Shown in pieces: positions 5,220 to 15,558 of a stretch of DNA of 32,774 nt. Made by a program: the position numbers and the translations under genes. The notes under the pieces are model-generated. The model saw only the letters and a program-made list of their open reading frames with translations, ran no database searches and was not told the origin of the DNA. Position 1 is the stretch's first letter, and every line of letters starts with the position of its first letter. Origin of the DNA: a virus; IMG/VR virus record IMGVR_UViG_3300037961_001352, positions 1-32,774 of that record; one strand, 5' to 3'.

Positions 5220-5753
5220 CTATTCTCTAATAGTTTCTGCTACAGTATCTTTTATCTTTTCGTACTCTTGCCACAAAGTTTTTTCCGGGGACCAAAATCT
5301 TCTTTGATCTCGTTTCATCTCTATTGAATGTAAAACTGTGGTGTGATCTTGTCCGAAGTATCTACCAATATCTGTTAGACCCATATTATATTTTTCAAAT
5401 AATAAATTATGAATAACATTTCTAGCTCTGACTATGCTTGATGTTCTTGACTTACCCATCAATGTTTCTTTATGAACTTCAAAGTGAATACAAACTTTAT
5501 TGATAACTGATTGCACATCAGATGGCTTCGGTGTTTTAAAACTAAACCCTACAATCTTTTTATTTGGTGGCGCAACTTGGACCGGTCTTTTTCTCTCCTG
5601 CATTTCTTTGCAGCCATTGATAAAGCCAAGTCTATAAATTTTCTTTTTCTCTTCGCTTAACAAATCGTATGATGCTTTAACTTCATAGATAAATTCATTT
5701 TGATTTAAGTATTTAATATGATTATCGTACACTTGATTTATATTTTTGGTCAT
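5220..5753 (-). CDS. Stand-alone DnaA domain IV (DNA-binding) protein
   Basis: 177 residues. Residues about 76-150 match bacterial DnaA domain IV: VINKVCIHFEVHKETLMGKS, SSIVRARNVIHNLLF, and the signature LTDIGRYFGQDHTTVLHS (126-143), which in DnaA binds the 9-mer box. There is no AAA+ Walker A or B, so it cannot bind ATP or unwind an origin. The usual FGGRDHTTV loop is one residue shorter (FGQDHTTV) and lacks the Arg. Residues 1-70 are a charged helical region of unknown role. GTAGGGGATCT precedes the ATG. Likely roles: marking a phage origin, recruiting or blocking host DnaA, or regulating transcription. Confidence 0.85.
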   Translation of the reverse strand: MTKNINQVYDNHIKYLNQNEFIYEVKASYDLLSEEKKKIYRLGFINGCKEMQERKRPVQVAPPNKKIVGFSFKTPKPSDVQSVINKVCIHFEVHKETLMGKSRTSSIVRARNVIHNLLFEKYNMGLTDIGRYFGQDHTTVLHSIEMKRDQRRFWSPEKTLWQEYEKIKDTVAETIRE

Positions 5754-5803
5754 AGATCCCCTACGTTTTCCTTCAGTTTTTTTTAATAATTAAATTAATA
5801 AGT

Positions 5804-5965: not shown

Positions 5966-6128
5966 CATGCTCCTTTTTTACTGTTGTAAAATCAATCTTC
6001 AAATTCTTGATCTTACATTCTACAAGCTCTCCACTATTGGAGTTGTTTGCAGCCTTCTTTACATCATCAAATAATTCAATCATCTCGAATGAACATTCTC
6101 CATTGATAATTCTTCGGTATTTTTTCAT
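5907..6128 (-). CDS. Small hypothetical protein
   Basis: 73 residues, MKKYRRIINGECSFEMIELF onward, with an acidic/amphipathic middle and a Ser/Glu/Lys-rich end. The ATG overlaps the stop of the upstream gene (ATGA), and AAGGAT lies upstream. Its last 59 bases are also read by the coiled-coil gene in another frame. No family recognised. Confidence 0.55.
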   Translation of the reverse strand: MKKYRRIINGECSFEMIELFDDVKKAANNSNSGELVECKIKNLKIDFTTVKKEHDGTDQIASAEAKGSSSEKT

Positions 6129-6427
6129 ACTTTATCCTTTTTGGCAACCTCTTTTTTGTGTATTTCTCTGGTCATTTTATTGTACACACTAAGGTCCAAA
6201 TAGTTATCTGCTTTAAAATTTTTTGTTGATCTATATAGTTTTAGAGCCATCATTAATTGACCTACTTGGTGTGGTTTTATTCGTTTCTTTAAATTACCAG
6301 CCAAGATAATTGTAAACATTTCTGCTAACATTACAAAATTTTCTTGATAGTTACCATAATCTTTCTCTCGATCATTGATAACTTTTTTTTCAATCTCTTG
6401 ATCTATATCTGTTATTTTATTGTCCAT
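6125..6427 (-). CDS. DUF6378-like protein
   Basis: 100 residues. The pattern INDREKDYGNYQENFVMLAE, then HQVGQLMMALKLYRSTKN, then ADNYLDLSVY matches the phage family I recall as DUF6378 (R..DYG...NF..A ... MM.LK..R ... D...D...Y). Its all-helical arrangement is reminiscent of MazG-type nucleotide pyrophosphohydrolases, but the acidic metal motif of MazG is not obvious. No Shine-Dalgarno is visible before this ATG; a 9-bp stem with a 38-base loop lies just upstream. Confidence 0.65.
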   Translation of the reverse strand: MDNKITDIDQEIEKKVINDREKDYGNYQENFVMLAEMFTIILAGNLKKRIKPHQVGQLMMALKLYRSTKNFKADNYLDLSVYNKMTREIHKKEVAKKDKV

Positions 6428-9443: not shown

Positions 9444-9823
9444 TGGCACGTTGGACTTATGCTTTTTCCAATGGCAATTATAACGATTGGCATAGGAAAT
9501 ACGAGGGTATAGCTATGATTGATGTTGATAGTATTGAGGTTTGTCCTCGCTGCTACGAGCCTTTGGCTATACTTGAAACTTGTTATGATAAAAATCAGAA
9601 ATATAAGGCTACAAACCTTGTAAAGACCCTTGCTAGTCGCTTAAATATACCCTGTTTTTTAGTTTTTTATAGAAATCTGACCCCAACTACCCTAACCTTT
9701 AGAGTTAAGCGAATAACAAGCTCTCCGACAGAGTTTGAGCTGATGAATGAGGACCAATGGTTGTCCATCTTGCTAGACCTCCAGCGAAATCACAGAAACT
9801 ATTGTAAAAACTATGCAGACTAG
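9443..9823 (+). CDS. Conserved hypothetical protein with DIDSIEVC..C motif
   Basis: 126 residues. MARWTYAFSNGNYNDWHRKY, then IDVDSIEVCPRCYEPLAILE with a CxxC, then KATNLVKTLASRLNIPCFLV. The acidic residues, the CxxC and the strand-helix-strand order give a faint resemblance to a compact restriction-endonuclease-like fold, with later Lys, but this is not strong. The family recurs in marine podoviruses beside a replication-initiator-like gene (recollection). Its base composition is less AT-biased than its neighbours. It overlaps the next gene by 11 bases. Confidence 0.6.
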   Translation: MARWTYAFSNGNYNDWHRKYEGIAMIDVDSIEVCPRCYEPLAILETCYDKNQKYKATNLVKTLASRLNIPCFLVFYRNLTPTTLTFRVKRITSSPTEFELMNEDQWLSILLDLQRNHRNYCKNYAD

Positions 9824-10505
9824 AGGTTTTATACACATAACGTACAAATTGTACTTCCATCTTAACAGATTGTCCGGTCAAAAGAAATCTAACTGTCTAA
9901 ATGTATTCATGGCATTGATGAAACACTGTTGGAAGAAGAATAACTACTCGGCTGGTCTTAGGCATATGACTTTAGCTAAAGATACTAACTTATCTAGGTC
10001 CACGATTAAAAGATCATTAGATACATTAGAGAAGATGAATGTAGTTTATTCTATCAAAGGTCGCAGTGGTAAGACCTACTCTATCAATCAATTATTCATT
10101 AAAAATGAGGGTCTATTTCAAGGTAGCTCAAATCTACACACCTCAATGTCTAAATCTGAACTACCTAATGCGCAAATAAGAGCTACATTAGTAGATACAT
10201 TAGAAGTATATACTATAGAAAATATAATTAGAGATAATAGAGGTAATCAACAAGCTATAGTAGACAATTTAGCGAAGCTCCCCCTTGCAGAGCTTAATTC
10301 AGATAATAAAAATCCATACTATATAAAACTTGCTAAAGAAAGAAAGGCTGAACTGGACCGGGAAAGTAAAGCTAATTATGTACACCCTCAAAAAGTATTA
10401 AGTGAACTCTCTAAAATAAGTAAGAATAGTAATCCAAGATACAAAGAGAAAGTTGCATATAATAAACGTAATAATTTAGATTGGAAAGGGAGACCAAAGA
10501 AATAA
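9813..10505 (+). CDS. Winged-helix replication-initiator-like protein
   Basis: 230 residues. Residues about 30-95 form a winged helix: a first helix LNVFMALMKHCW, HMTLAKDTNLSRSTIKRSLD as helix-turn-helix, TLEKMNVVYSIKGRSGKTYS as the wing. This is the HTH_36/RepA_N-like layout of replisome organisers and plasmid/phage initiators. Residues 100-230 are polar and basic, with no helicase or primase motif. A TTATACACA match lies in its own 5' end (9829-9837). Function as initiator is inference; a transcription regulator is the alternative. Confidence 0.65.
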   Translation: MQTRGFIHITYKLYFHLNRLSGQKKSNCLNVFMALMKHCWKKNNYSAGLRHMTLAKDTNLSRSTIKRSLDTLEKMNVVYSIKGRSGKTYSINQLFIKNEGLFQGSSNLHTSMSKSELPNAQIRATLVDTLEVYTIENIIRDNRGNQQAIVDNLAKLPLAELNSDNKNPYYIKLAKERKAELDRESKANYVHPQKVLSELSKISKNSNPRYKEKVAYNKRNNLDWKGRPKK

Positions 10506-10921
10506 TGCCGGGTAGACCAATGCGTAAAGTATTCTGTCAAGGCTACACTCGTGCCGGTAGACGTGAGGGTAAACTCATTCCTTGTAGAATGAAAGGTTAT
10601 CAGTTGGCAAATGGTACCTTTTATTGTAAGTATCATGGGTACCAAAATGTTAAAGGGTTTAGGAAAGCAAATTATACAGATGAAACTAGAATAAAACAAC
10701 TAAGTAAACTACAACAATTTAGAAAGTATACAGATGAGCAACTCAAAGAATATTACTACACCAAAGTCAAAGTCAGAATTGATAACAACGAACCAAGCAG
10801 ATATAATTTGCGAAAAACTAACGAGAGGTCTAACCCTTACAGAAATTTTAGAGGAAAAACAGTACGAGTTCAGCTTGATGAAGTTCTATGCTCACTTAAA
10901 AAAAAATCCAGAATTGAATGA
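10505..10921 (+). CDS. HGG-type zinc-binding protein upstream of terminase small subunit
   Basis: 138 residues; ATG overlaps the preceding stop (TAATG). C11, C27, C41 and H44 in FCQGYTRAGRREGKLIPC ... FYCKYHGYQNVKGF form the C-C-C-H pattern of the HGG(x)STG family often encoded directly before small terminases; here HGG is HGY. The middle, YTDEQLKEYYYTKVKVR, is helical. The last about 60 residues are read from DNA that also encodes the terminase small subunit in the +1 frame (10734-10921). The C-terminus is therefore either genuine dual coding or run-through after a frameshift. Confidence 0.6.
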   Translation: MPGRPMRKVFCQGYTRAGRREGKLIPCRMKGYQLANGTFYCKYHGYQNVKGFRKANYTDETRIKQLSKLQQFRKYTDEQLKEYYYTKVKVRIDNNEPSRYNLRKTNERSNPYRNFRGKTVRVQLDEVLCSLKKKSRIE

Positions 10922-11207
10922 AAGAATAACTGAGGCAAGAAAGAATGGTGTACAAACTTTAATTGATAAACTGTTGCAAATCTTTCAATATCAAGAGGTT
11001 GAAAATCCTAACCAGATATTATGGATAAGAGAGAAAACAAAATTTATTACGTTCTTGGCTAACAAATTAACTGATCTGTATTCTGATAATAAAGTGCAGC
11101 AAGTTAAGACAGATCAATCTATTAAGATTTCATGGGAAGATAATCAATCGGATATGATTGATGTATCAGAGGATATAGTTGATATACCCTCTGATAATAA
11201 AGATTAA
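10734..11207 (+). CDS. terS: Terminase small subunit
   Basis: 157 residues. Residues about 15-75 carry the usual small-terminase helix-turn-helix order: TTNQADIICEKLTRGLTLTE, then FSLMKFYAHLKKNPELNERI (a short turn before the FYxHLKKNPE helix), then TEARKNGVQTLIDKLLQI. The acidic C-terminal tail (SDMIDVSEDIVDIPSDNKD) would contact TerL or portal. It recognises the packaging site on phage DNA. The start ATG lies 188 bases inside the upstream gene in another frame; the conserved helix begins soon after, so a later start is unlikely. TerL is about 3 kb away rather than adjacent. Confidence 0.75.
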   Translation: MSNSKNITTPKSKSELITTNQADIICEKLTRGLTLTEILEEKQYEFSLMKFYAHLKKNPELNERITEARKNGVQTLIDKLLQIFQYQEVENPNQILWIREKTKFITFLANKLTDLYSDNKVQQVKTDQSIKISWEDNQSDMIDVSEDIVDIPSDNKD

Positions 11208-13666: not shown

Positions 13667-13873
13667 TACAAAAAAGATTTAATATTTATTTGTGTGATAT
13701 ATTTGCAGCAGTGTTGCATATTTACAGTTTAGAATTATTTTAATGTTTATTGGGTTTAGTTGAAGTTGTTTTGAAATGTTCCTATTTTAATTTATAGAGC
13801 GCAAACTTTTTTTATGCGATAAAACAAACGACAGTATTATTGACCTATCTATAGAAAATAAAACATTGACCGG

Positions 13874-13910
13874 TTTAGGTTTGATAATCTTTTATTATCA
13901 CTAATCTAAA
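13874..13910. repeat. Interrupted inverted repeat
   Basis: TTTAG (13874-13878) pairs with CTAAA (13906-13910), and GATAAT (13883-13888) with ATTATC (13894-13899) around a 5-base CTTTT loop; unpaired bases separate the two stems. Either a regulator-binding palindrome or an RNA hairpin. Seen directly; function unknown. Confidence 0.5.
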
Positions 13911-14039
13911 AAAGATATATATATAGAACAAGGACTTATTTTTTGGAAACCTTGACCCCCTATACCCCCAAAAACCTGTCGCATTTTTTATTATATATAT
14001 AGACCGGACTTGAGGACACCCTTAGATCCAGCCACCCCT

Positions 14040-14048
14040 TTATACACA
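14040..14048 (+). promoter_or_regulatory. DnaA-box consensus match
   Basis: TTATACACA fits the bacterial DnaA box TTATNCACA exactly and lies in the gene-free region. Identical 9-mers occur inside genes at 9829 and 27176, and a few are expected by chance in such AT-rich DNA, so this alone is weak. Its interest comes from the phage-encoded DnaA domain IV protein. Confidence 0.3.
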
Positions 14049-14095
14049 AACACTTTTTTAGTTTTATTTTTTTTCAAATGCACTAAATGTAGTAT

Positions 14096-14284
14096 ATGGA
14101 TTACTTTAGTATGGATGATTTAGATTCAGTTGCTTACATTGAAGAAGGCACAAACAACGTAATAATTAAGTTTTATGGCTTTCCCAATAAGAAAACTGCT
14201 AATTTATTTATTACTTATGCTATGCTTAGTATGGGTTTTGACTATCAACCTATTAGTAGTATGAAGTCTGACAGAATACACTAA
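14096..14284 (+). CDS. Small conserved protein before TerL
   Basis: 62 residues, MDYFSMDDLDSVAYIEEGTN, then VIIKFYGFPNKKTANLFITY and a short tail. One compact alpha/beta domain. The MDYFxMxDLDSVxY start and KFYGFPNKKTANLF block are ones I recall beside TerL in marine podoviruses. TAA is two bases before the TerL ATG. Perhaps a packaging accessory; function unknown. Confidence 0.65.
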   Translation: MDYFSMDDLDSVAYIEEGTNNVIIKFYGFPNKKTANLFITYAMLSMGFDYQPISSMKSDRIH

Positions 14285-14286
14285 AT

Positions 14287-15558
14287 ATGGATATTAAAAT
14301 ACCCTACACACCAAGGAAGCATCAAGCCTACTTGCACAAACAAATAGACAATCACAGATGGAATGTACTGGTATGCCACAGAAGGTTTGGCAAGACAGTA
14401 TGTATGATCAACCACCTAATTAGGTCAGCATTGTTGTCCCAAAATAAAAACCCTAGGTATGCCTATATTGCACCCACCTTCAAACAAGCAAAGTCTATTG
14501 CATGGGATTACATGAAACAGTTTACCGCCAAGATACCCCACACCAAGTTTAATGAAACAGAGCTGCGTGTAGATTTACCAAATGGCTCTCGTATCACCTT
14601 GCTAGGCTCCGAATCCCCAGATGGGTTAAGAGGTATATATCTTGATGGCTGCGTAATTGATGAGTACGCAAACGTAAACAGTAAGTTGTTTCCAGAAATA
14701 ATTAGACCGGCACTATCTGACAGAAAGGGTTACTGCGTATTTATAGGTACACCTTCTGGTATGCAGAATAACTTTTACGAATTGTACCAACACGCACAAG
14801 GTGCGGATGATTGGTTTCACTACAAAGCTAAAGCTAGTTCTACAAAGATAGTTGATCAAGATGAATTAGATAAGGCAAAAGAAGTTATGGGAGATAAGAA
14901 GTATCAGCAAGAGTTTGAATGCGATTGGATTGCCAACATAGAAGGTGCAGTATATGGAGATGTGATTGCAAAACTAGATGATGACAGACAGCTTACCAGA
15001 GTGCCTTACGATCCTGCGCTACCAGTATCAACAGCATGGGACCTTGGAGTATCAGATCACAGTTCTATAATATTTTATCAGCAGCTTGGTAGATCCATTA
15101 ATATAATTGATTACCACGAAGAAAAAGGTCAAGGTCTACCTTATTACATTAAGATGATTAATGAAAAAGAATATATCTACAAAGATCATTTTGCTCCGCA
15201 TGACATTGAAGTTACCGAATTTGGAAATGGCAAAACCCGAAGAGAGGTCGCTACGCAATTAGGATTAAGGTTTAAAGTCGTACCAAAAATTCCATTAGAA
15301 GATGGCATCCATGCAACAACAATGATGTTACCTAGATGTTGGATTGATGTTGAGCATTGCAAAAGTTTGATAGATGCGTTAAGACATTACCACAGGAAGT
15401 ATATTGATAAAAACAGAATGTTTAGATCAAAACCTGTCCATGATTGGAGCAGCCATGCGTGTGATGCCATGAGGTATCTCGCTGTTGGTCTCCAAGAAAT
15501 TAATACTAGACAAACTGCTCCACAAGTTGTAGCAGATAATAATTATAGGATTTTATAA
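14287..15558 (+). CDS. terL: Terminase large subunit
   Basis: 423 residues. ATPase: deviant Walker A CHRRFGKT (30-37), Walker B with catalytic Glu CVIDEYA (122-128), coupling motif FIGTPSG (152-158). Nuclease (RNase H-like): WDLGVSD (251-257), APHD (303-306) and HDWSSHACDAMRY (385-397), which supply the metal-binding acids. It packages DNA into the prohead through the portal and cuts it. The length is that of compact podovirus-type large terminases. The codon use is visibly less A/T-biased in the first half than in neighbouring genes. The small subunit is about 3 kb upstream, beyond the leftward island. Confidence 0.95.
   Translation: MDIKIPYTPRKHQAYLHKQIDNHRWNVLVCHRRFGKTVCMINHLIRSALLSQNKNPRYAYIAPTFKQAKSIAWDYMKQFTAKIPHTKFNETELRVDLPNGSRITLLGSESPDGLRGIYLDGCVIDEYANVNSKLFPEIIRPALSDRKGYCVFIGTPSGMQNNFYELYQHAQGADDWFHYKAKASSTKIVDQDELDKAKEVMGDKKYQQEFECDWIANIEGAVYGDVIAKLDDDRQLTRVPYDPALPVSTAWDLGVSDHSSIIFYQQLGRSINIIDYHEEKGQGLPYYIKMINEKEYIYKDHFAPHDIEVTEFGNGKTRREVATQLGLRFKVVPKIPLEDGIHATTMMLPRCWIDVEHCKSLIDALRHYHRKYIDKNRMFRSKPVHDWSSHACDAMRYLAVGLQEINTRQTAPQVVADNNYRIL

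Follow-up and report, generated by a model that had tools for sequence, protein, structure and literature searches.

The DnaA_C gene and its genomic setting

The window, by which we mean the whole stretch of 32,774 nucleotides that was analysed, lies in a virus record of 33.4 kb. Whole-genome synteny and TerL place it with the HTVC010P-type pelagiphages, and its gene order matches that of HTVC203P and nine other isolates. Phages of this type rank among the most abundant viruses of the ocean and have as their hosts SAR11 bacteria, the commonest bacteria there. The gene at positions 5220-5753 (minus strand) is an intact open reading frame with an ATG start that encodes 177 aa, and its product is 96.6% identical to gp22 of HTVC203P, the nearest isolate, where the record carries the annotation 'DNA replication initiation (DnaA)'. 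Matches to DnaA_C were found in 19 Pelagibacter phage records. The gene closes the exo-ERF operon, which belongs to the early region. All 10 isolates examined show the same succession of nuclease, single-strand annealing protein, small genes and DnaA_C, with HTVC010P and part of Lederberg (products unnamed) placed in that order by position.

The protein class is not new, since the gene is already annotated in isolates and DnaA_C proteins that stand alone occur widely among uncultured phages. The DnaA proteins of HTVC010P-type phages (HTVC203P gp22, Skadi1_28 and Greip_gp42) agree with the one described here in gene, position and domain; they are annotated with replication initiation, and the descriptions consulted give neither a target site nor a separate initiator. 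DnaA is present in all HTVC010P-related genomes according to Chen et al. 2019 (PMC6811365). Among uncultured Caudovirales, 51 viral models match the fold at E<=0.001; the name DnaA C-terminal is attached to many of these proteins, and most of them align across domain IV only.

Domain and fold of the DnaA_C protein

The original prediction took the protein to be a DnaA domain IV that comes with no ATPase, and both the profile search and the predicted fold bear this out. Bac_DnaA_C (PF08299) was matched by residues 81-145 (5319-5513, minus strand) with E=2e-17 and 63.4 bits against a curated cut-off of 31.5, and it is the only Pfam domain above cut-off in the 177 aa, AAA+ being absent. The AlphaFold model has a mean pLDDT of 76, with domain IV mostly at 87-92 and its last helix extending to about residue 172. 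When this model was searched with Foldseek at E<=0.001, DnaA alone was matched, namely domain IV of M. tuberculosis DnaA (3PVP) and of E. coli DnaA (1J1V), with TM to target of 0.82-0.85 and E of about 3e-4.

The N-terminal region (residues 1-75; 5529-5753, minus strand) is predicted to be all-helical, with helices at residues 5-18, 20-30 and 34-53 modelled at modest confidence, and no relative of it was found in Pfam or by a PDB profile search. The phage protein thus shares the fold and the retained contact residues with domain IV of bacterial DnaA, whereas it differs in having no AAA+ domain, in an N-terminal part that is unrelated in sequence, in the change of R432 to Gln and, in most of the phage proteins, in the change of P423 to Thr or Ser.

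Recognition loop and contact residues

The motif LTDIGRYFGQDHTTVLHS occupies residues 126-143 of the protein and includes the recognition motif QDHTT at residues 135-139 (5337-5351, minus strand). Our alignments show that all aligned HTVC010P-type proteins have QDHTT, with Gln in place of the host Arg, and that their loop is one residue shorter than that of host SAR11 DnaA, which reads FANRDHTT or FSNRDHTT. The shorter loop noted in the original prediction therefore holds in comparison with the host, but it is not specific to phages, as the loop of M. tuberculosis DnaA (FGRDHTTV) is equally short and that of the DnaA_C protein of a distant phage, C72C1 (FGRDHSTV), is also short. The length of the loop is consequently not decisive; the replacement of Arg432 by Gln is.

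The residues of DnaA that contact the box include R399, D433, H434 and T435 (PMC7561715), and residues 432-435 have been described as a base-contacting stretch (PMC5043019). Host SAR11 DnaA carries the full contact set. The pelagiphage proteins that we aligned, with identities as low as about 37-40%, retain the counterparts of R399, D433, H434 and T435, and all of them carry Gln at position 432, the sole change among these five residues. The lost Arg had been thought to contact the backbone of the box; the Arg position is indeed changed, but R432 falls within the stretch described as base-contacting.

A single conserved DnaA box before the late operon

A non-coding divide (13720-14095), which we aligned across 18 phages, separates the early genes, which read leftward, from the late operon, which reads rightward. 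The late operon opens with an ORF of 62 aa (14096-14284, plus strand; conserved in 11 phages), which is followed by terL (14287-15558; PHROG match) and by the head and tail genes. A single conserved DnaA box, TTATACACA, is located at 14040-14048 (plus strand), 56 nt before the operon in the window. In 73 of 74 distinct versions of the region, a box that departs from TTATNCACA at no more than one position was found 55-67 nt upstream of the first late ORF. It is exact in 60 of the 74, and the variation is mostly at the free position 5 (A, C or G). After shuffling, 4-12% of regions had a box with at most one mismatch at this place, and 0.1-0.9% had an exact one.

As the 74 regions are related and not independent, all 9-mers of the window's region were ranked without reference to DnaA. 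At the top of this ranking stood TTATACACA, which was present in 18 of 18 diverse representatives (11 exact); a second word tied at 18, ACTAAATGT (10 exact), adjoins the start codon. Mean pairwise identity reached 0.91 within the box and 0.41 and 0.48 in its two 20-nt flanks, in an alignment anchored on the box, which favours the box somewhat. The distance from the box to the ATG is tight (55-67 nt, sd 2.9) and the distance from TATATA to the box is loose (14 to 126, sd 15.7). The only region of the 74 without the box, L298, lies on a fragment that carries no DnaA_C region; it has apparently lost a segment between two short repeats that are still present in HTVC010P, with an assembly effect as another possibility. 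The contigs without DnaA_C in this set are fragments.

The search for clustered boxes that the original prediction had suggested gave neither a cluster nor an enrichment in the phage genomes, with 0-4 exact copies of TTATNCACA in each of 11 genomes against about 3 expected; what emerged instead was the one conserved site. This site is the standard TTATNCACA, and the altered box preference that had also been proposed is not supported. When the alignments were inspected, the box variants showed no visible tendency to change together with the protein.

A T-rich tract lies 3' of the box (14054-14074, plus strand) in most relatives; it is not diagnostic because the genome is AT-rich. No sigma70-like late promoter scored above shuffled sequences. 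Other conserved elements were noticed in 13720-14000, namely GGTCAGTATTACTGACC-like elements and TTGATAA/TTATC inverted repeats, an ACCCC(C)TATACCCC stretch and TATATATATA. The TTGATAA/TTATC inverted repeat was considered as a general operator and rejected, being inconsistent across genomes.

A separate candidate initiator of lambda-O type and a candidate origin

The gene at 9813-10505 (plus strand) is usually annotated as a 'putative transcriptional regulator'. We observed that 11-12 of the 13 members of its family match PHROG replication-initiation families, O-like included, with best E of about 4e-9 to 6e-9; the O-like match itself was found in 11 of the 13 members (best E 5.7e-9). The gene occurs in 19 Pelagibacter phage records, the same phages that carry DnaA_C. 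The model of its product has a winged-helix N-terminus, a disordered linker (residues 99-132) and a helical C-terminus, and in Foldseek it gave generic winged-helix matches only, none of them at E<=0.001.

The DNA that encodes the linker carries iteron-like 22-bp repeats followed by an AT-rich stretch (10107-10241, plus strand), which make up a candidate origin. A lag of 22 ranks first or second of 29 lags for direct repeats in 15 of 15 phages, with a 21-base lag ranking first in two phages. As 22 cannot be divided by three, this lag is not accounted for by repeats in the peptide. The 22-bp repeats are individually weak in several phages, and clear 24-bp repeats were seen in the 'replication initiation protein' gene of the distant phage C72C1. 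In 7 of 11 O-like genes the 50-base stretch richest in A and T starts at or just 3' of the repeats; in the window's own gene the AT peak lies just 3' of them.

This arrangement resembles that of lambda, in which the iterons lie in the middle of the O gene and are followed by AT-rich DNA (PMC7466680). The winged-helix N-terminus and the disordered linker with direct repeats and then AT-rich DNA are the points of likeness to O and ori-lambda, whereas the product falls below the Pfam cut-off for Phage_rep_O (E=0.0048) and the repeats are weak in some phages. Judged from sequence, the gene and its internal repeats look like a lambda-type system and are the better candidate for initiator and origin, which weakens the proposal in the original prediction that the DnaA_C protein defines a phage origin. 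Primary initiation of replication is probably not the task of the DnaA_C protein, whose standing annotation with replication initiation is probably misplaced.

Proposed role at the late operon

The separate initiator, the single conserved box and the missing ATPase together lead us to read the DnaA_C protein as a docking factor for the late operon. We tentatively favour a protein that recognises a single target box on the phage genome, controls the late operon through RNA polymerase and does not act as the primary initiator, although we place this reading at somewhat under even odds. Produced from the last position of the exo-ERF operon, thus among the early genes, the protein would dock at the box at 14040-14048 through its single domain IV. 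The helical N-terminal part might then act on the host RNA polymerase, by which the late operon would be switched, most likely on. The protein would do so with no unwinding of DNA; the O-like protein, together with the repeats inside the gene that encodes it, would carry out primary initiation. One such site in front of one long late operon speaks in favour of a late switch, as do the retained contact residues, the conservation and steady spacing of the box and the shared presence of the DnaA_C and O-like genes in the 19 records. Against it speak the place of DnaA_C beside replication-type genes (DUF1376, primase) in other alphaproteobacterial phages, the failure of any sigma70-like late promoter to exceed chance, the missing counterparts of the omega-binding and sigma-like parts of GafA, the lack of visible covariation and the boxless region L298. 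Should late transcription begin at the TATATATA element, the box would fall in the 5' leader, and a repressor would be likelier than an activator.

The closest parallel is GafA of Rhodobacter capsulatus, whose DnaA-like domain is needed for activation of the GTA operon, headed by a terminase gene, via the omega subunit of RNA polymerase, and which binds 75-125 nt upstream of TerS (PMC9638019). DnaA itself can act as a transcription factor (PMC8203912). GafA and the split DnaA-like gene of Hyphomicrobiales resemble the present case in that a DnaA-like domain for DNA binding occurs in a protein other than DnaA and belongs to an alphaproteobacterial system derived from phages. GafA acts upstream of a terminase-led operon; the conserved box here, a putative binding site, is found 55-67 nt upstream of the first late ORF. 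In contrast, the DnaA-like domain of GafA is N-terminal, with Glu8 in place of Arg399 of DnaA (PMC9638019), and GafA has omega-binding and sigma-like parts with no detectable counterpart in the phage protein: neither an omega-binding region nor a sigma-like C-terminal domain was found in the Pfam scan or in the PDB profile search of the N-terminus. As these other domains of GafA were not found here, the likeness is one of function and not of membership.

Of the alternatives to a docking factor for the late operon, the strongest is that the protein helps replication by marking the box next to the T-rich tract as a second origin or accessory site, where it would assist the O-like protein in recruiting the host replisome. 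It owes this rank to the comparable genes of Rhizobium and Aurantimonas phages, which lie beside replication-type genes. A close relative is missing its own DNA polymerase, helicase and primase (PMC10504331), and the place of the gene in the exo-ERF operon and the T-rich stretch adjoining the box fit the same reading. The cumulative GC skew has its minimum at 13-14.5 kb, which would also fit, but the skew is fully confounded with gene strand and was rejected as evidence for an origin. A helper role is nevertheless rather unlikely in our view, because a separate O-like initiator with in-gene repeats exists and because one box bound by a protein with no ATPase could not be melted in the way that DnaA melts DNA.

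Two further readings give host DnaA a part. The box might serve host DnaA and tie late expression or replication to the host, with the phage domain IV competing with or displacing it; the full contact set of SAR11 DnaA, the consensus sequence of the conserved box and the stimulation of ori-lambda transcription by host DnaA in E. coli (PMC8203912) are consistent with this. However, that a phage conserves the site along with a protein that shares its specificity is most simply explained by the two working together. We infer that the box is used by the phage protein and not by host DnaA, and consider the host-dependent reading improbable. Still less probable is that the protein sits on the DnaA boxes of the host oriC, blocks chromosome initiation and frees the replisome. 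Domain IV alone would compete for boxes, and prophage proteins that block DnaA are known, for example YfdR (PMC4776307), but this reading would leave unexplained why the late region of the phage itself keeps a box, and the change of Arg432 to Gln might lower affinity.

If a docking role at the late operon is correct, the one-site switch would correspond, on the phage side, to GafA and would take the place of lambda Q, and the control principle of GafA, in which a DnaA-type domain governs packaging and structural genes, may have a phage relative. The wider statement, that a DnaA box-binding domain has been turned into a one-site switch for late genes, apart from a lambda-O-type initiator, in abundant marine phages, is put forward with more reserve than the docking role itself. 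The results narrow the question to one protein, one 9-bp site and one candidate origin elsewhere; a literature search covering papers other than Du et al. 2021, the main one on HTVC010P-type phages, found no experimental account of how these phages time replication and late genes.

Other conserved features

A conserved leader consisting of an A-tract and GTAGGGGATCT is located directly before the ATG of the DnaA_C gene (5754-5785, minus strand), and its conservation exceeds what a ribosome site seems to need. We considered it as a repeated binding motif and rejected this, as the best match in each genome is this site only; a motif that occurs once per genome gives no regulon.

The gene of a DUF6378 protein (6125-6427, minus strand) sits in the exo-ERF-DnaA_C operon, and the PHROG label phosphofructokinase for it looks mislabelled. 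The product of 10734-11207 (plus strand) matches the Sf6-type terminase small subunit (PF20901) above cut-off; the isolates name its counterpart 'putative DNA binding protein', and in C72C1 a terminase small subunit is annotated at the corresponding place.
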